This document shows positions 2,741-57,954 of a DNA stretch of 64,000 bases, piece by piece; position 1 is the stretch's first letter, and the number at the start of each line of letters is the position of its first letter. The position numbers were made by a program, and so were the translations under genes. Origin of the DNA: Aliiroseovarius lamellibrachiae. Its GTDB lineage: Bacteria > Pseudomonadota > Alphaproteobacteria > Rhodobacterales > Rhodobacteraceae. The stretch is from positions 310,001-374,000 of the forward strand of contig NZ_JAHEVJ010000002.1 in NCBI RefSeq assembly GCF_018599245.1, read 5' to 3'. A model generated the notes under the pieces. The model ran no database searches, had not been told where the DNA came from, and worked only from the letters and a program-made list of their open reading frames with translations.

Positions 2741-4279
2741 ATGAGCGAAACTGCCCCCATCATCTATTCCGAAGACCAAGCCGAAGCCCATGACCGTGTG
2801 GCTGACATGCTGCGTGCAGCGGGCGTCAATCTGGATGACGCGCTGCTGACGCCGCTGTCAGATGGAAAATCACAGGTTTTTGCGGTGATGGGCAAGGCGG
2901 GATCGGGTAAGACCCTGTTGCTGGGGCAGCTCTATAAAGCGTTAGAGGCGGCGGGCGTTGATATCGTCTCGGGCGACTACGAAGGCAAAAAGCGCAAAGA
3001 TCGCAGAACCTTGGCCATTCTGGCCCCCACCAACAAAGCGGCGTCCGTGTTGCGGTTGCGCGGCGTGCCGGCCACCACGATCCACCGCATTCTTTATACG
3101 CCCGTCTACGACCCGGAATATGAAAAGATCGCGGAATGGCTGGCGGACAATGGCGAACGGCCCGAGATCGAAGGCCTGACGGATGAGGCGCTTGACCGTG
3201 CTTACGCGTTTTATCAGCAACAAAAATCGATCCCGGGCGCGCTGGCCGCAGCGGGCCTGCGCGGATCAGATTTTATCACCGGGTGGAAACGCCGCGATGA
3301 CCCGCTGGACATCGGTTTTGTCGACGAAAGCTCGATGCTGGATGACAAGCAATTTGAGGATCTGCGCGAGATTTTTCCGACCCTGATCCTGTTTGGCGAC
3401 CCGGCACAGCTGGCCCCAGTTGGTCAATCGGGCACTATGGTTTTTGATAAACTGGGGGACACGCGCAAACTTGAGCTTAGCCGCATTCACCGCCAAGCGG
3501 ATGACAATCCGATCCTTGATCTGGCCCATGCGCTGTCCGATGACAGTCTGAGTTTCGAGACGTTTGAGCGAATGATCGAAGAGGCCGCGCGCCGGGATGA
3601 CCGGGTGGTGGTGGCCCCGCGAGTGAATGCCGATCTGATGTCGAGGTCTCCGGTTTTGGTGTGGCGCAACAAGACCCGTGTGCGCTTGATCACTGCCTTT
3701 CGAGGTGCCTTTGGCGCGCCTGCGGAGGAACTGATGCCGGGCGAGCCGTTGATTTGCGATGGGATTGAGCTGCCTCTGAAACACCGCAAAAAGCGCATCG
3801 ACCTTGAGGCGCGCGGCCTGATCAAAGGCGCGCAATGTGTTTACCTCGGGCCAGGTAAGCGCCCCGGATTTTCGCGTCTGCATGTGATGGGGGCGGAAGA
3901 TCCTCAGGTGTCGGCCGCGTCCATTATCAAAATTGAAATGCCGGACGAAGAAGAACCCTTTATCCCCTTTGCCGCGCGGATGGGGGCGGCGTTTTTGCAT
4001 GGGGCTGCTGTGACCATTCACAAGGCGCAGGGCAGTCAGTGGTCCGATGTTCAGGTGTTCTCACCGGATATTTATGCCGCCGCCCAGATGGGTCGCAAAG
4101 AGGCGGGGATCGCCCTGTGGAAACGCCTCGCCTATGTCGCCATCACGCGGGCCGAAACACGGCTGCATTGGGTTACACGCTATGCGATGGCGCGCCCGGC
4201 GGGGGATCTTGGAACGGATGATTTGCGCGCCCCCGCCGCCCCGTTGCAGTTGCAAACTGAGGGAGAGGACGATGCCTAG
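2741..4279 (+). CDS. RecD-like ATP-dependent DNA helicase / exonuclease subunit
   Basis: A 512-residue superfamily 1 helicase. Walker A is GKAGSGKT (residues 51-58), Walker B is VDESS near residue 194, and LFGDPAQLAPVG matches motif III. TIHKAQGSQ near residue 425 is the RecD/UvrD-type motif V region, and YVAITRAETRLHW is motif VI. It belongs to the group often annotated as ATP-dependent RecD-like helicase or exodeoxyribonuclease V alpha-like. It probably acts alone, because no recB or recC lies nearby. Substrate polarity and nuclease activity cannot be told; no nuclease motif is visible. The stop overlaps the next gene's start by 8 bases, so the two are likely translated from one mRNA. Confidence 0.85.
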   Translation: MSETAPIIYSEDQAEAHDRVADMLRAAGVNLDDALLTPLSDGKSQVFAVMGKAGSGKTLLLGQLYKALEAAGVDIVSGDYEGKKRKDRRTLAILAPTNKAASVLRLRGVPATTIHRILYTPVYDPEYEKIAEWLADNGERPEIEGLTDEALDRAYAFYQQQKSIPGALAAAGLRGSDFITGWKRRDDPLDIGFVDESSMLDDKQFEDLREIFPTLILFGDPAQLAPVGQSGTMVFDKLGDTRKLELSRIHRQADDNPILDLAHALSDDSLSFETFERMIEEAARRDDRVVVAPRVNADLMSRSPVLVWRNKTRVRLITAFRGAFGAPAEELMPGEPLICDGIELPLKHRKKRIDLEARGLIKGAQCVYLGPGKRPGFSRLHVMGAEDPQVSAASIIKIEMPDEEEPFIPFAARMGAAFLHGAAVTIHKAQGSQWSDVQVFSPDIYAAAQMGRKEAGIALWKRLAYVAITRAETRLHWVTRYAMARPAGDLGTDDLRAPAAPLQLQTEGEDDA

Positions 4280-5000
4280 CATATTGATCACAGGGGCCAG
4301 CGCCGGAATTGGTCGTGCGGTGGCCGAGCTGTTTTTGGACAAAGGCTGGACCGTGGGGCTTTTGGCGCGCCGCAAGGAGGCGTTGAACGCGGTGGCCGCC
4401 GGGCGAGAAAACGCCATTGTTCTGCCTGCGGACGTTACGGATGAGGCGGCGGTTCAGGCGGCTGTGTCGTCGTTTGCCGCGAAAGCCGGGCGGTTGGACG
4501 TGCTTTTTAACAACGCCGGGATGTTCACACCTGCGACCACGATTGACGAGGTGTCTTTGGCGGATTGGACGCATGCGGTGAACGTGAATCTGACAGGGAT
4601 GTTCCTATGCGCGCGTGCGGCGTTTGCCCAGATGCGGGCGCAGTCCCCGCAAGGGGGGCGGATCATTAACAACGGGTCGATTTCGGCCCATGTACCGCGT
4701 GAAGGCGCCGTCACCTATACGGTGACCAAACATGGCGTCACCGGCCTGACACGCCAACTGAGCCTTGATGGGCGCGCTTTTGACATCGCCTGTGGGCAAA
4801 TTGACATAGGCAATGCGCGCACTGATTTATTGCAGGGAATTGTCGAGGATGCGGTGGCCGAAGGCGAGGTGCCGCCACCGACCATGGATGTCACTGATGT
4901 GGCGTCATCTGTGTTGCACATGGCCACGCTGCCAGCTGAGGCAAACGTGCAGTTTATGACCGTCATGGCGACAAAGATGCCCTTTATTGGGCGCGGATAA
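4272..5000 (+). CDS. Short-chain dehydrogenase/reductase (SDR)
   Basis: A 242-residue classical SDR. The NAD(P) motif TGASAGIG spans residues 7-14, NNAG spans 80-83, the catalytic Ser is 136 or 138, and the Tyr149-x3-Lys153 pair completes the active site. The reading frame is open back to 4047, but the ATG at 4272 puts the Rossmann glycines at the usual position and overlaps the helicase stop by 8 bases. Substrate is unknown; the family oxidises or reduces alcohols, sugars and ketones. A CTAGAAAA repeat array starts 68 bases after the stop, in the convergent gap with the next gene. Confidence 0.9.
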   Translation: MPSILITGASAGIGRAVAELFLDKGWTVGLLARRKEALNAVAAGRENAIVLPADVTDEAAVQAAVSSFAAKAGRLDVLFNNAGMFTPATTIDEVSLADWTHAVNVNLTGMFLCARAAFAQMRAQSPQGGRIINNGSISAHVPREGAVTYTVTKHGVTGLTRQLSLDGRAFDIACGQIDIGNARTDLLQGIVEDAVAEGEVPPPTMDVTDVASSVLHMATLPAEANVQFMTVMATKMPFIGRG

Positions 5001-5067
5001 CAATTCGACACGCAGTGCTGATTTCTGATGGGGCCTTGACGGAAACCGAGGCTGGGTGTTGGTCTTT

Positions 5068-5180
5068 CTAGAAAACTAGAAAACTAGAAAACTAGAAAAC
5101 TAGAAAACTAGAAAACTAGAAAACTAGAAAACTAGAAAACTAGAAAACTAGAAAACTAGAAAACTAGAAAACTAGTTTTC
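5068..5180. repeat. Tandem array of the octanucleotide CTAGAAAA (array 1)
   Basis: Fourteen CTAG tetramers spaced exactly 8 bases apart give 13 perfect CTAGAAAA units from 5068. The array ends in CTAGTTTTC, so its last unit forms the perfect palindrome GAAAACTAGTTTTC (5167-5180). It lies between convergent genes, 68 bases after the SDR stop and 5 bases before the stop of the minus-strand gene. A second array of the same unit, orientation and right boundary is at 37173-37301. It is not a CRISPR array because there are no spacers. Confidence 0.98.
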
Positions 5181-5185
5181 CCGTA

Positions 5186-5956
5186 TCAACCGCGCTGAAT
5201 GACCCGAAATACTGCTGATGCCCCCCAGCCAGCGGCAATAGCGATGACCAAAGACAACAGGCCATAGATCAGCGGCTGACTATGGGCGAGATTGTAGATC
5301 CAGCGCTCCAGCCCAACTTTACGCACGTTGATCACCGTCTCGTAGTGCGCCGAAACATATCCGCCGCGGGTCAGGAAAATCCGGGTGCGATAGTCCCCTT
5401 CGATCAAGTTCGAAGGAAGGGCGATGCGGGCGTCAAACAACGTGTCTTTATAAATATTGACCGAGTTTTCCACCAGCCGGTAGGTGCCGGCGTTCTCGCG
5501 AATACGGATCAGCGCTTCGGTGAAACTGGTCGGGTCCACATTGGTAAACGGGCTTTCGCTGACCTTGATGGTTTGCGAGACGGACACCAAATGGCGCAGG
5601 TCATCGAGCACGGAAATCGACTTGTCCAGATCAGCCGAGGTTGCAACAGCGTAAAAGCTGGGCGCAGAGGCCAAGTCCAGCGCTTCGGTGTTCACCCAGA
5701 TGCCAAAGCGTTTGTCTTTGCGGCGCACGGTGACCGGTCCACTGGGGCCTTCGACCACCACAACCACCTCTAAAGGTTCATCCGCCGGGGCCGGGGTATC
5801 ACGCTTCACTGCACCAAAGATCAGGATTTCAGAGCCCACAAAGGTCGCATTGATGGACACGAGGTTTTGGCTCAGCCCCGCCACGACTTCTTCGGCGGCG
5901 CGCGCCGGTGACAGGCAAAATGTCAGGGCCATAAGGGCGGCAAACAGGCGCAGCAT
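5186..5956 (-). CDS. TIGR02186-family membrane-anchored protein
   Basis: A 256-residue protein with an N-terminal signal peptide (cleavage expected after PARA), a periplasmic beta-rich domain, and one C-terminal membrane helix (about residues 228-250) followed by a short basic tail. It matches the conserved alphaproteobacterial family TIGR02186, which is typically encoded next to a TauE/SafE (TSUP) transporter, as here. The start codon overlaps the transporter's stop by one base (TGATG), indicating co-translation. Its function is not established; the constant pairing suggests an accessory subunit of the exporter. Confidence 0.85.
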   Translation of the reverse strand: MLRLFAALMALTFCLSPARAAEEVVAGLSQNLVSINATFVGSEILIFGAVKRDTPAPADEPLEVVVVVEGPSGPVTVRRKDKRFGIWVNTEALDLASAPSFYAVATSADLDKSISVLDDLRHLVSVSQTIKVSESPFTNVDPTSFTEALIRIRENAGTYRLVENSVNIYKDTLFDARIALPSNLIEGDYRTRIFLTRGGYVSAHYETVINVRKVGLERWIYNLAHSQPLIYGLLSLVIAIAAGWGASAVFRVIQRG

Positions 5957-25523: not shown

Positions 25524-26627
25524 TTACTTTACGCAGCCCACAAAGCTGTCTGCCATGCCGCGAAGCAGTTGGGTGTAAAGCGCGGGTCCAGGGGTCAGGG
25601 CCGCACCAAGGGGGTCGATCACTTGTGTGCTGACATCGGTGCCTTCAAACACAGTGTTGATCAGGCCCGCGTTGAACTGCGGCTCCGCCAAAGCACAGGT
25701 GATCTGGCCGTCTTTCACCGCGTCACGCAGGGCGGCAATGCGGGCAGGGCTGGGGCGGCTGGCATCGCCCAGCGAAATGGCACCCGCGGCTTTCAACCCA
25801 AAACGTGCTTCGAAATACTGATAGGCGTCGTGAAAGACCACAAACCGCGTGTCCGCGAGGGGGGTAAGCGTTTGGCGGGTGTCTGCGATCAAAGCGTCCA
25901 GCCCTGCGCGGGCAGATTTCGCATTGGCAAGGTACACATCGGCATGTTCCGGGTCGCGTTCGGCCAGTTGATCCGCGATCACACCAAGCCACATTTGCGC
26001 ATTTACCGGGTCGAGCCAGACATGGGGGTCCATGGCGCCTGCGGCGTGGTCGTGATCATGGTCGTGCCCATCGGAATGCTCTGCATCGTGATCCGCGTGG
26101 TCGGCATCGTGGTCGGCATCATGGTCGTCTGCATGATCGTTGTCGTGGTCTTCGTGTTGCGCGTCATCGTGGTCGTCATGGGTTTCATGCGTGTCGTGGT
26201 CATCATGATCGTCGTCATGCGCACCGTGGTGATCCTCGTCGCCAAAGACGGCGGCTTCCCGGAATGGCAACTGCGCGGTCACGCCGTTTTCTGTCAGGGT
26301 CAAACGCGCCGCACCCGCGGCAATCGTGTCCAAAGATTTCTCCAGCCACGGCGTCAAAGTTGGGCCAACCCAAACCACCAAATCCGCATCGGCCAAGGCC
26401 GCGGCCTCTGACGGGCGCATGGAATAGCCGTGTGGCGAGGCCCCCGGCGGCAGGATCAAATCAGGCGTGCCAACGCCTTGCATCACCTGCGCCACAAGCG
26501 CGTGGATGGGGGCGATGTCGGTGGCCACATGCGGGATATGGTCGTGCGCTTGCGCGGCGGGGGTGAAGCCAACAACCAGTGGAAGCAGGGCGGGAAGAAG
26601 GCGAGGGGTGAAAAAGCTGCGCGGCAT
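25524..26627 (-). CDS. znuA: Zinc ABC transporter substrate-binding protein with long His/Asp-rich loop
   Basis: A 367-residue periplasmic zinc-binding protein with a signal peptide ending PAAQA. Conserved ligand regions are IHALVAQVM, SPHGYSMRP and DPHVWLDP. Between them lies a roughly 65-residue insertion made almost only of His and Asp (about residues 148-213, coded by 26040-26240), typical of high-affinity ZnuA but long here. The start at 26627 is chosen to begin the signal peptide (MPRSFF). It is divergent from zur-znuC-znuB, with two Zur boxes between. It captures zinc and passes it to ZnuBC. Confidence 0.95.
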   Translation of the reverse strand: MPRSFFTPRLLPALLPLVVGFTPAAQAHDHIPHVATDIAPIHALVAQVMQGVGTPDLILPPGASPHGYSMRPSEAAALADADLVVWVGPTLTPWLEKSLDTIAAGAARLTLTENGVTAQLPFREAAVFGDEDHHGAHDDDHDDHDTHETHDDHDDAQHEDHDNDHADDHDADHDADHADHDAEHSDGHDHDHDHAAGAMDPHVWLDPVNAQMWLGVIADQLAERDPEHADVYLANAKSARAGLDALIADTRQTLTPLADTRFVVFHDAYQYFEARFGLKAAGAISLGDASRPSPARIAALRDAVKDGQITCALAEPQFNAGLINTVFEGTDVSTQVIDPLGAALTPGPALYTQLLRGMADSFVGCVK

Positions 26628-35338: not shown

Positions 35339-36255
35339 CACAGATCTATGACCGCGTTGCCCTGATCGGCCTTGGCCTGATTGCATCGTCAATGGCGCAC
35401 GGAATGCGCCGCGCAGGCCTTGCGGGCGAAATCGTCGGCACCGCCCGTTCCGCTGAAACCCGAGACACCGCGCGCGCCCTTGGCTTTTGTGACCGGATCG
35501 AAGACACCGCCGCCGAGGCCGTCAAAGGCGCGGATCTGGTGGTGCTGGCTGTGCCCGTTGGCGTCATGGGCAATATTGCCAAAGAGATCGCACCCCATTT
35601 GGCCAAAGGGGCCACCGTGACCGACGTGGGATCGGTCAAGCAATCGGTGATCGACATGGTTGGTCCGCATCTGCCCGACCTCGTTGATTTCATCCCGGGA
35701 CACCCGCTTGCTGGCACGGAACACTCTGGGCCAAACTCTGGTTTTGCCGAACTTTTTGACAATCGTTGGTGCATCTTGGTGCCCAATGGCGCGGATGCGG
35801 CGGCCACCGCGCGTCTGCGCAAATTCTGGGAAGGTTTGGGATCTAACGTCGAGGAAATGGGACCAGAGCACCACGATCTCGTGCTGGCCGTGACCAGCCA
35901 CACCCCGCACCTTATCGCTTATACGATGGTCGGGGTGGCGGATGATTTGGGCCGCGTGACCGACAGCGAAGTGATCAAATATTCGGCCGCCGGGTTTCGC
36001 GATTTTACCCGGATTGCCGCCTCTGATCCCACCATGTGGCGCGATGTCTTTCTGACCAACAAAGAGGCGACGCTGGAAATTCTGGGTCGTTTCACCGAAG
36101 AGCTGTTTGCGCTGCAACGTGCCATTCGCACCGGTGATGGCGAGGCGCTTTTTGATTATTTCACCCACACCCGCGCCATTCGACGCAGCATTATCGAAGC
36201 GGGTCAGGACACCGATGCGCCGGACTTTGGTCGTGGCGCTGGGGCACAAGAATGA
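35335..36255 (+). CDS. Prephenate/arogenate dehydrogenase
   Basis: A 306-residue TyrA-family enzyme. The dinucleotide motif is [12 protein letters not shown], the active-site segment is [13 protein letters not shown], and [12 protein letters not shown] follows. It oxidatively decarboxylates prephenate or arogenate toward tyrosine. It is coupled to hisC by ATGA and to the extensin gene by another ATGA. No ACT domain is present. Substrate choice cannot be read from sequence. Confidence 0.92.
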
Positions 36256-37130
36256 CCCTGCGGGCGGCTCTTTTTGCTGGACTGGCTGTGACGCTGATGG
36301 CGGGCACGGCGCTGGCTTATGCCCCTGAGACGTCGTTGCGCCCAGAACCGCGCCCCGGTTCTGGAACCGTTGCCCCAAAAGTGGCCGTCAGGTTTGACGC
36401 GAAAATTCGCCCCAAGCCCCGCCCTACAGCCCACACCCAAACCACGGCACCGATGGTCAGCCTGTCCAACACCACAACCGCCGCTGTGTTTGGTGATCAG
36501 GCACTGACCCGGTCCTTGCGCCCCCTGCCACGCCCCAAACAGCGTGTGATGCAAGCCACCGCCCCCTTGGCCACGGCACTGCCGACCCCAAAACCTGCCG
36601 GGCGCAAAGGGTCAATTTGCGGTGTGAAAGCGATCAAAGGTCAGGCGTTGTCGTCGATCCCCGGCAAGCTTTCGGGATGCGGCGTGTCCAAACCGATGCG
36701 CGTGACCGAGGTGTCGGGCGTGCGGTTAAGCCAGGGCGCGATCATGGATTGCGACACGGCCAAAGCCCTGAATTCCTGGGTGCGCAAAGGGGTCTTTCCT
36801 GCGGTCGGTCGGTTGGGCGGCGGCCCTTCTGAGCTGAAGGTGATTGCGCATTATTCATGCCGCACACGGAACAACAAGCCGGGCGCAAAAATCTCGGAAC
36901 ATGGGCGTGGGCGCGCGGTGGACATCGCCGGTGTGACCTTGAAGAACGGGGCGTATTTGAGCGTGCTGAAAGGCTGGCGTGATCCGGTGCAGGGCAAGGT
37001 TCTTAAGGCGATGCATGCCGCGGCGTGTGGGCCATTTGGCACTGTGTTGGGGCCAAACTCCGACAAGTATCACAAGGATCACCTGCATTTGGACACCGCC
37101 AAATATCGCAGCGGATCATATTGTCGTTGA
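36252..37130 (+). CDS. Extensin-like family protein (periplasmic)
   Basis: A 292-residue protein with a signal peptide (cleavage near ALAYA), a proline-rich linker, and a C-terminal extensin_C domain. That domain has SEHGRGRAVDIAG and YHKDHLHLD, the H/D/H pattern of M15-like peptidases, and several cysteines (CGV, MDCD, YSCR, AACG, YCR) suited to disulfides. It is probably a periplasmic cell-wall enzyme. It overlaps tyrA by four bases although the functions look unrelated; this order is conserved in relatives as far as I recall. A CTAGAAAA array starts 43 bases after its stop. Confidence 0.87.
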   Translation: MTLRAALFAGLAVTLMAGTALAYAPETSLRPEPRPGSGTVAPKVAVRFDAKIRPKPRPTAHTQTTAPMVSLSNTTTAAVFGDQALTRSLRPLPRPKQRVMQATAPLATALPTPKPAGRKGSICGVKAIKGQALSSIPGKLSGCGVSKPMRVTEVSGVRLSQGAIMDCDTAKALNSWVRKGVFPAVGRLGGGPSELKVIAHYSCRTRNNKPGAKISEHGRGRAVDIAGVTLKNGAYLSVLKGWRDPVQGKVLKAMHAAACGPFGTVLGPNSDKYHKDHLHLDTAKYRSGSYCR

Positions 37131-37172
37131 GCGAATGAGGCTTGACGCCAATCCCAATAAGGGTCGACTTCA

Positions 37173-37301
37173 CTAGAAAACTAGAAAACTAGAAAACTAG
37201 AAAACTAGAAAACTAGAAAACTAGAAAACTAGAAAACTAGAAAACTAGAAAACTAGAAAACTAGAAAACTAGAAAACTAGAAAACTAGAAAACTAGTTTT
37301 C
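37173..37301. repeat. Tandem array of the octanucleotide CTAGAAAA (array 2)
   Basis: Sixteen CTAG tetramers at exact 8-base spacing (15 full units), ending CTAGTTTTC so that the last 14 bases (37288-37301) are the palindrome GAAAACTAGTTTTC. It lies between convergent genes, 43 bases after the extensin stop and 25 before the DUF2125 stop. Same unit, strand and right boundary as the array at 5068-5180, with two more units. Confidence 0.98.
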
Positions 37302-37325
37302 CGGTTTTTGATCGCGCGCGTGGAC

Positions 37326-38327
37326 TTAGCGAATTTTCAGCACGGGGGCGCGACCAATGGGAATGGGCCCCAAGGTCACATAACCGCCCGAAAAGCCCAA
37401 CGTTACATCCAGGCTCTCGCGGCCCCCGGACAGGCCCGCCACAAATTGCAGCGCTCCGGTCAGCGTGCTGACGAATTCTGGCGCAATGGCGCCTGACGTT
37501 TCGGCCACCGCAATCATCTGACGCCAGTTGTTGGCTTTGATCGCGATTTCGCCGGTGGGAATTCCGGCTTCGTCGATCTCAAGCGTTCCCCCCATTTTCA
37601 CATCCATCTCCCCCCATTTTGCTGTCAACAAGGTCAGATCCAAATGGCGCGGCTGTGGGCGGGCGTGTTCAATGGCGAAGCGGTCCCAGGGCGCGGAAAA
37701 TCCCATGTTCGCCTTTACCGTGACGCCATCAAAGACCGGCGGCAGCACGCTGTCGGGGCCAAGGCTTTGTACAAATTCTGAGGCGGGGATCAGGTTTTTG
37801 GCTTCAAAATAGACCTCATGAAGGTTGCTGTCCGCATCCAACAGACGCGTGGCCAATTGCCCGCTGTCCAGATGTGCTTGCCATCCAATCGATGAGACAA
37901 GCGACATGTTTTCAATCACAAATGTTGCGCGATCAAGGGGCAGGTCCGGGTGGGGGGCCACCACCAGAGACCCTTTGAAATCGTCGGCGGTGATGTCAAT
38001 TTTCTGGGTCGGGGCTGACAGGCGCTGCACCCCCGGCCAGACCGCGATCACATGGTTGGGTTTATAGCTGAGCGCGAGGATCTGGAACTCCTCTGCGTTC
38101 CAAGCAAGGCCCGTTTCGGGATCGGCCAAGGACAATCCCGTGATCACTGTGTCAAACCGATTGGGAAAGCCACGCACCTTCAGGTCGTCATATTCGGCCA
38201 CCCAACCGTCCGGACCACGCTCGTCAAACCACTGCACAAATGCACGTTCGGCACTTGATGCGCCAACCCACCAATACCCGGCCCACAGCCCGGCCAACAC
38301 AAGGGTAATGACGATCAGTTTGCGCAT
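37326..38327 (-). CDS. DUF2125 family protein
   Basis: A 333-residue alphaproteobacterial conserved protein. One N-terminal hydrophobic segment (about residues 4-22) serves as signal or anchor; the rest is a beta-rich periplasmic domain. The VRGFPNRFDTVITGLSL region is typical of DUF2125. Function unknown. Divergent from the chaC gene with 65 bases between. Confidence 0.87.
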   Translation of the reverse strand: MRKLIVITLVLAGLWAGYWWVGASSAERAFVQWFDERGPDGWVAEYDDLKVRGFPNRFDTVITGLSLADPETGLAWNAEEFQILALSYKPNHVIAVWPGVQRLSAPTQKIDITADDFKGSLVVAPHPDLPLDRATFVIENMSLVSSIGWQAHLDSGQLATRLLDADSNLHEVYFEAKNLIPASEFVQSLGPDSVLPPVFDGVTVKANMGFSAPWDRFAIEHARPQPRHLDLTLLTAKWGEMDVKMGGTLEIDEAGIPTGEIAIKANNWRQMIAVAETSGAIAPEFVSTLTGALQFVAGLSGGRESLDVTLGFSGGYVTLGPIPIGRAPVLKIR

Positions 38328-57863: not shown

Positions 57864-57954
57864 CCAGAAAATAGCGCCGCAAAATAGGGCCAGACAGTGG
57901 GACCAAAAACTGGGACCAGAAAATAGGGCCGGAAAACAGGGCCGGAACATGGGG
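57864..57954. repeat. Seven degenerate tandem copies of a 13-bp repeat
   Basis: Cut every 13 bases from 57864, the DNA reads CCAGAAAATAGCG, CCGCAAAATAGGG, CCAGACAGTGGGA, CCAAAAACTGGGA, CCAGAAAATAGGG, CCGGAAAACAGGG, CCGGAACATGGGG. Consensus CCRGAAAATAGGG. The last unit supplies the GGGGAAG ribosome binding site of the importer ATPase gene. Confidence 0.9.

Follow-up and report, generated by a model that had tools for sequence, protein, structure and literature searches.

The window, the whole 64,000-nucleotide stretch of Aliiroseovarius lamellibrachiae DNA analyzed here, contains two perfect arrays of the octanucleotide CTAGAAAA (Table 1). Array 1 sits between an SDR gene and an Alph_Pro_TM gene in a gap of 185 bases (5001-5185), 113 of which are filled by the array and its cap. 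Tandem Repeats Finder (TRF) assigns it a period of 8, 13.5 copies, and 100% matches. It terminates in GAAAACTAGTTTTC, with the last base at 5180, and 5 bases separate this end from the minus-strand ORF, which ends at 5186. Array 2, flanked by extensin-like and DUF2125 genes, is identical to array 1 in unit, strand, and cap, and also occupies a convergent gap. The genes flanking both arrays are ordinary. A first-pass annotation had described array 1 as 13 perfect units with this end and this distance to the stop, and had pointed to a second array alike in unit, strand, boundary, and convergent setting; TRF and the coordinates bear out both descriptions.

Table 1 Features of the two array loci in the window
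Feature	Position	Strand	Remarks
SDR gene (PF00106)	4272-5000	+	Left neighbor of array 1; context, outside the element
TTGAC	5036-5040	+	27 bases ahead of array 1, directed toward it
Array 1	5068-5175	+	13 perfect CTAGAAAA units and final CTAG; TRF and sequence
Terminator-like hairpin	5158-5181	-	10 pairs, loop of 4, T-rich tail; ~5 bases past the minus-strand stop
Cap palindrome of array 1, AAAACTAGTTTT	5168-5179	.	TTTTC runs to 5180
Alph_Pro_TM gene (PF09608)	5186-5956	-	Right neighbor of array 1; context
Extensin-like gene	36252-37130	+	Left neighbor of array 2; context
TTGAC	37142-37146	+	26 bases ahead of array 2, directed toward it
Array 2	37173-37296	+	15 CTAGAAAA units and final CTAG, then TTTTC; TRF
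Terminator-like hit at array 2 cap	37279-37302	-	Hits on both strands
Terminator-like hit at array 2 cap	37280-37301	+	Hits on both strands
Cap palindrome of array 2, AAAACTAGTTTT	37289-37300	.	
DUF2125 gene	37326-38327	-	Right neighbor of array 2; context

CTAGAAAACTAGAAAA is found 26 times across the window (array 1, 12; array 2, 14) and 0 times in 100 shuffles. Perfect 8-mer arrays of at least four copies are confined to these two in the window and number zero in twenty 20-kb congeneric stretches, and none of the remaining ten TRF rows of the window has a period of 8. Two other repeats were observed. An imperfect 13-base repeat at 57864-57947 contains CCAGAAAA and CCGGAAAA words and lies directly ahead of an ORF that starts at 57949; it could be a degenerate member of the family or have no connection with it. 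At 26096-26179, the 12-base repeat CGTGGTCGTCAT is present in seven copies with 69% matches.

The array family in the A. lamellibrachiae genome

The genome of the species (G000; 3.34 Mb in 20 contigs) yields 165 overlapping matches to a two-unit pattern and, at a threshold of at least 2 units, 20 assembled arrays, the window arrays being two of these. One unit is present at many intergenic loci, as in the repeat families of the Xanthomonas/Nostoc type. The spacers at the 20 loci read AAAA in 183 of 187 cases, and the remaining four are terminal TTTT. The 12-base palindrome AAAACTAGTTTT has 14 copies in G000 and its reversed control has none. With 20 arrays and this palindrome count, the suggestion that the window arrays belong to a genomic family and are not the product of chance is upheld.

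Arrays are also carried by Aliiroseovarius sp. KMU-50 (G398), A. crassostreae CV919-312 (G394), and the MAG UBA2553 (G400); these names, and Paenihalocynthiibacter styelae for G298, were inferred for the labels. We compiled 66 arrays from the four species, after removing forms of fewer than 2 units. Thirty lack the plain TTTTC cap (10 end in TATTC, 20 in other sequences), and 2 further arrays end in N. In the four array-bearing species, the cap palindrome AAAACTAGTTTT has copy numbers of 14, 13, 12, and 9, so that each genome holds 9-14 copies of a short intergenic palindrome in the manner of REP sequences; among 17 array-free species, one has a single copy and 16 have none.

Distribution and empty sites

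The three-unit pattern was found in 2 of 394 genomes in an even sample of the bacterial family, the own genome counted, and the array family in 4 of the 21 Aliiroseovarius species. The first-pass annotation had made its reading depend on conservation in relatives, which does exist but is confined to these few genomes. A midpoint-rooted tree built from two genes and covering 20 of the 21 species groups the four array-bearing ones (split support, 100). One Aliiroseovarius clade carries the family, in which many arrays keep their intergenic place and differ in unit number.

At three compared loci, array-free relatives are without the insert. The L042 locus is a short gap with no array in 16/16 array-free species and contains extra DNA in the four array-bearing ones. 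L038 has no array in 15/15 alignable array-free loci (two more loci were uninformative). At the array 1 locus, the array is absent and the gap sequence unrelated in 8/8 alignable array-free species, one of the compared loci being without the SDR side, and the same is true of the array-bearing KMU-50. For L278, the upstream flank could not be placed in 16 array-free loci.

We looked for traces of a mobile element. Relative to the empty sites, L042 and L038 contain extra DNA whose ends are too diverged to fix, as regards the terminal inverted repeats and target duplications of a MITE or insertion sequence. A RAYT or other Y1 transposase (PF01797, Y1_Tnp) was rejected as the mover, with 0 matches in G000, G398, and G400, that is, in three of the four array-bearing genomes, 8 in G394, and 1 weak match in the array-free G412. 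A pre-existing TTGAC serving as an IS200/IS605-type target was likewise rejected, since inspection by eye found none in the short gaps of array-free species (16/16 at L042 and 15/15 at L038). A single spread of the palindrome within one clade, with slippage afterwards, fits these observations well.

Gene context and predicted hairpins

Overlap with a called gene is at most 12 bases in 117 of 118 arrays from all organisms, as judged by our own simple gene caller, and several of the 118 overlap a stop codon. At one locus in four species (L001, L211, L272, L285), the upstream gene takes its TAG stop from the initial CTAG of the array.

The G000 arrays lie in 6 convergent, 10 tandem, and 4 divergent gaps, and the 66 arrays of the four species in 20, 35, and 11, respectively. 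Against a background of 152 gaps of at least 60 bases (24 convergent, 29 divergent), the convergent arrays are in excess (20/66 versus 24/152, p = 0.017, an optimistic value because orthologs are counted repeatedly) and divergent gaps are not avoided (11/66, p = 0.85). The convergent setting is a mild preference and not a defining trait, contrary to what the two window arrays had suggested, as G000 itself has just 6/20. The first-pass annotation had named two outcomes that would speak against it, random orientation or a total of two copies; the weak orientation bias goes some way toward the first, and the 20 arrays dispose of the second. Gene 3' ends lie closer to the arrays than 5' ends (medians of 57 and 105 bases). 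Capped arrays face 3' ends in 23/34 cases versus 14/30, a difference that is not significant (p = 0.13).

Terminator scans found one hit at array 1 (shuffles: mean 0.2, sd 0.4) and two at array 2 (mean 0.5, sd 0.7). Both window caps have the hairpin followed by a T-tract that is characteristic of intrinsic terminators, the T-tract being imperfect; the U-tracts are interrupted by CTAG or CYGG. Because CTAG is self-complementary, transcripts of both strands are predicted to form a ladder in which CUAG helices alternate with 4 x 4 internal loops and the cap closes the structure. The predicted minus-strand folds reach -25.7 kcal/mol (z -6.9) for array 1 and -28.6 kcal/mol (z -4.8) for array 2. The array 1 plus strand has a z of -8.2 with an unpaired centroid, suggesting that many registers compete. 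In KMU-50, a two-unit cap with its U-tract is predicted to form a 12-pair hairpin (-14.1, z -3.8); the one-unit form in G400 folds no better than shuffles (z -0.03). By eye, the arrays at L275 and L280 adjoin GC-rich terminators. The predicted folds make insulation at transcript ends, one of the roles first proposed, plausible.

We tentatively favor, at somewhat less than an even chance, the reading in which a REP-like palindrome spread a single time, lengthens through slippage, and provides hairpins at 3' ends as a weak terminator or protector. The founder would have been a short palindrome resembling AAAACYGGAAAACTAGTTTTCYGGTTTT, with TTGAC ~25 bases off, spreading in the manner of REP or MITE elements. 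Its 8-base internal repeat would lengthen and shorten by slippage on the hairpin, and extra units would be tolerated because any register still folds. The RNA ladder and cap would then work as an intrinsic terminator of low strength or as a hairpin that protects 3' ends; within the window, they would serve the minus-strand genes that end 5 (array 1) and 24 (array 2) bases before the array. Judging from folding and position, termination would be the most economical function. Against it stand the 11 arrays in divergent gaps, which have no adjoining gene in need of a terminator; the 30 without a plain cap, the broken U-tracts, the GC-rich terminators beside L275 and L280, the poor fold of the one-unit form, and the non-significant facing of 3' ends also weigh against the favored explanation, which leaves TTGAC unaccounted for and has no transposase linked to the arrays.

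Orthologous arrays keep their place and change in length

Twelve groups unite a G000 array with a counterpart in one or more of UBA2553, KMU-50, and A. crassostreae; the aligned flanks are ~69-97% identical. UBA2553 has a counterpart with an array or a seed for 19/20 G000 loci (L037 was not covered), so the same gaps are used in relatives at variable lengths, as in the families of the Xanthomonas/Nostoc type. Fifteen pairs could be compared after setting aside L035 and L042 (N runs) and L036 and L205 (changed unit). Their G000/UBA2553 unit numbers are 6/6, 4/6, 14/8, 2/1, 9/7, 7/1, 13/2, 6/8, 12/7, 10/2, 5/1, 10/1 (L043), 4/2, 14/10, and 12/13, unequal in 14 of the 15; some short arrays in UBA2553 may reflect assembly collapse because this genome is a MAG. 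Between G000 and KMU-50, the numbers are 6/10, 4/4, 9/7, 7/4, 15/6, 6/5, 12/3, 10/11, 5/6, and 6/12, unequal in nine of the ten listed groups. The further suggestion that array 1 is a slippage-prone locus gains support from these unequal orthologs.

Such changes at fixed places also speak for a rather unlikely explanation, a neutral VNTR in which the palindrome invaded once and keeps slipping, contraction purges or fixes mutant units, and the arrays have no function. Whole arrays have indeed changed their unit. In UBA2553, L292 (the counterpart of L036) has about ten CCAGAAAA units, with the CTAG core altered in most units, and L288 (the counterpart of L205) has at least 7 CTGGAAAA units, with the core altered in most. 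L209 (= L080) of A. crassostreae has 11 CTAGGAAA units adjoining three CTAGAAAA, where the orthologs L033 and L115 are all CTAGAAAA, and the whole array at L274 is converted to CTAGAAAG units. Mutant units filling single arrays (L292, L288, L209) are what slippage predicts, and at one locus the array is flipped (L129 versus L153). Unless copies are re-seeded, neutrality is hard to reconcile with the uniformity of the AAAA spacers and with the retention of TTGAC when G000 is compared with KMU-50 or A. crassostreae, the intervening spacers being about half identical (9/28 to 20/28).

A TTGAC motif at a set distance

TTGAC lies 17-36 bases away and is directed at the array in 39/66 arrays, against ~3.9 predicted by the intergenic rate in the window; 2 are directed away. 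For G000 alone, the count is 14/20. TTGAC is the most enriched pentamer, present in 51/176 flanks of 94 arrays (orthologs included) versus 5 and 2 in control zones. Its side follows the array end: in plain-capped arrays, TTGA[CT] is found on the side opposite the cap in 18 cases and on the cap side in 1; where the array has another end, the motif is on that side in 13 cases and on the far side in 3. TATTC-ended arrays (4 versus 3) follow no rule. TTGA[CT] is absent beside 22/66 arrays, and at L040 the end of the gene upstream is overlapped by the TTGAC. Of 19 ortholog pairs, which are hand-picked and overlapping, 18 keep TTGA[CT] across intervening spacers that are 9/28 to 26/28 identical. Beyond these pairs, TTGAC is kept in L041/L284 and lost in at least 3 (L038 versus L321, L038 versus L322, L257 versus L007). 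A hairpin formed between TTGAC and the array was rejected (mean z -0.22, SE 0.16, 39 cases); folds upstream of TTGAC have a mean z of -0.65 (SE 0.23).

The excess of TTGAC, its side rule (18 to 1 and 13 to 3), its retention between orthologs, and the near-invariant AAAA spacers would all be expected of a platform for a putative DNA-binding protein that coats the arrays and organizes or silences DNA. The protein would read the 8-base register, with TTGAC as an anchor two to three helical turns off, and selection on binding would preserve unit, TTGAC, and place. We consider this unlikely. No binding protein was found: TrpR (PF01371) was rejected, staying under the cut-off in 21/21 genomes of the genus (best in G000, 19.1 bits; cut-off, 27). 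The CTAG core that would be read is itself altered in most units at L292 and L288, and the ortholog evidence is tempered by the selection of the 19 pairs and the losses outside them. CTAG depletion elsewhere also differs little. The observed/expected ratio is 0.56 in the window outside the arrays, and CTAG is depleted in array-free congeners too; in random 20-kb stretches, it is 0.41 (0.22-0.54) in array-bearing and 0.53 (0.30-0.73) in array-free genomes. CTAG avoidance peculiar to array-bearing genomes was rejected on these grounds: at array-chosen loci the values are 0.73 versus 0.91, but the random-stretch ranges overlap.

CTAG arrays outside the genus

A scan of species genomes gave at least 102 stretches with arrays of CTAGAAAA. 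Among the matches listed are Thalassobius, Halocynthiibacter, Maritimibacter, Robiginitomaculum MAGs, four Vibrio, Photobacterium, Pseudoalteromonas, Thalassotalea, a Bacteroidales, and a Paludibacteraceae MAG. Among these matches outside the genus, the arrays have a patchy distribution within Vibrio, Robiginitomaculum, and Bacteroidales. Several non-genus taxa have CTAG runs with the spacers GAA, ATAA, CAAA, AGAG, TAC, or AAAAT, recurring every 7, 8, or 9 bases, where CTAG is constant by construction because only CTAG runs were sought; units other than CTAGAAAA are under-counted because the loci were found by CTAGAAAA. These arrays are either kin of the Aliiroseovarius family or convergent. 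The Vibrio array loci L087, L095, and L134 have neighboring gene families in common, and the place of the array is perhaps conserved in Vibrio too.

No gene was linked to the arrays across taxa within three genes on each side, which also counts against the protein platform. Phage origin was rejected, with 0 exact matches in IMG/VR, as was plasmid origin, with none in PLSDB, where a repeat filter may hide matches. Looser IMG/VR patterns matched 75 stretches for CTAG-N4 x4, at least 120 for CTAG-N3 x4 (no control), and at least 120 for GATC-N4 x4; the comparison of 75 with at least 120 indicates no special excess of CTAG-N4. It is quite improbable that CTAG-core arrays are the trace of one trans-acting system reading or writing short repeats at 7-9-base steps, patchy in marine Alphaproteobacteria, Vibrionales and relatives, and Bacteroidales, and TTGAC-anchored in Rhodobacteraceae, with arrays maintained or used as chromosome-wide stations.

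TTGAC as a candidate promoter element

CTTGAC occurs 26 times in the zone versus 0 and 0 in the control zones, and TTGAC lies opposite the cap in 18/19 capped arrays with a one-sided motif. Both would suit a small transcription unit with TTGAC as the -35 box, a short RNA beginning at the array, and termination at the cap, as would a raised mean -10 score 15-18 bases from TTGAC (-0.76 versus -3.06 for 131 TTGACA in random stretches), which the A+T-rich array start can explain; yet a -10 box above 3 bits is found in just 1/39, array 1 has no promoter-like site, the site near array 2 bypasses its TTGAC, and Rfam gives 0 matches in the whole window at the gathering score, leaving this the least credible of our readings. 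TTGAC as a promoter is not supported by a test that is weak in this genus, where 36 gene-upstream TTGAC likewise have no clear -10 box.

Relation to known repeats and significance

We found no earlier report of CTAGAAAA arrays in the open-access literature, and the available text of PMC12699852 contains neither CTAG nor an octanucleotide. The closest published kind, as far as the available text goes, is the dispersed intergenic heptamers GGGAATC and GGGGA(C/T)T of Xanthomonas and Nostoc (PMC4692102), which also mentions Calothrix heptanucleotides. In the portions of that paper available, the heptamers share with our arrays one unit at many intergenic loci, mostly in the same gaps in relatives and at varying lengths; generally no association with mobile elements was found there, and the authors left the function open. 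The Aliiroseovarius unit differs from those described there in being A+T-rich and 8 bases long and in having a core that is its own complement; the arrays also have a palindromic cap and a TTGAC placed at a set distance. Divergent gaps, under-represented for the heptamers according to the same text, are not avoided here, and for our arrays empty sites in relatives are documented. G-quadruplexes are not expected in the Aliiroseovarius arrays, which have no G-runs.

Cyanobacterial STRR sequences are short tandem intergenic arrays at many places, like ours, with units of 7 bases; we know of no cap or anchor in them. REP sequences have a GTAG or GGAG head at the foot of the hairpin. REP and REPIN palindromes are moved by RAYT, according to the available text of PMC8049555. 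The Aliiroseovarius element resembles them as a short dispersed intergenic palindrome and differs in its tandem octamer and in the missing Y1 transposase of three of the four array-bearing genomes. The trp operator of TrpR reads CTAG-N4-CTAG, with CTAG half-sites 8 bases apart as in the arrays, which, unlike this single operator, lie at about twenty places per genome, in a genus with no TrpR over the cut-off. Intrinsic bidirectional terminators share with the cap a hairpin and a T-rich tail on one or both strands, whereas the arrays are A+T-rich, repeat-extended, and present in divergent gaps too.

The family amounts to a natural experiment, with about twenty loci per genome holding one repeat, empty sites in sister species, varied lengths, and a TTGAC at a set distance that is mostly kept while its surroundings drift. 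The arrays could double as strain markers in these marine bacteria. They allow a direct approach to the role of dispersed short repeats in bacteria, a question that the authors of PMC4692102 left open.
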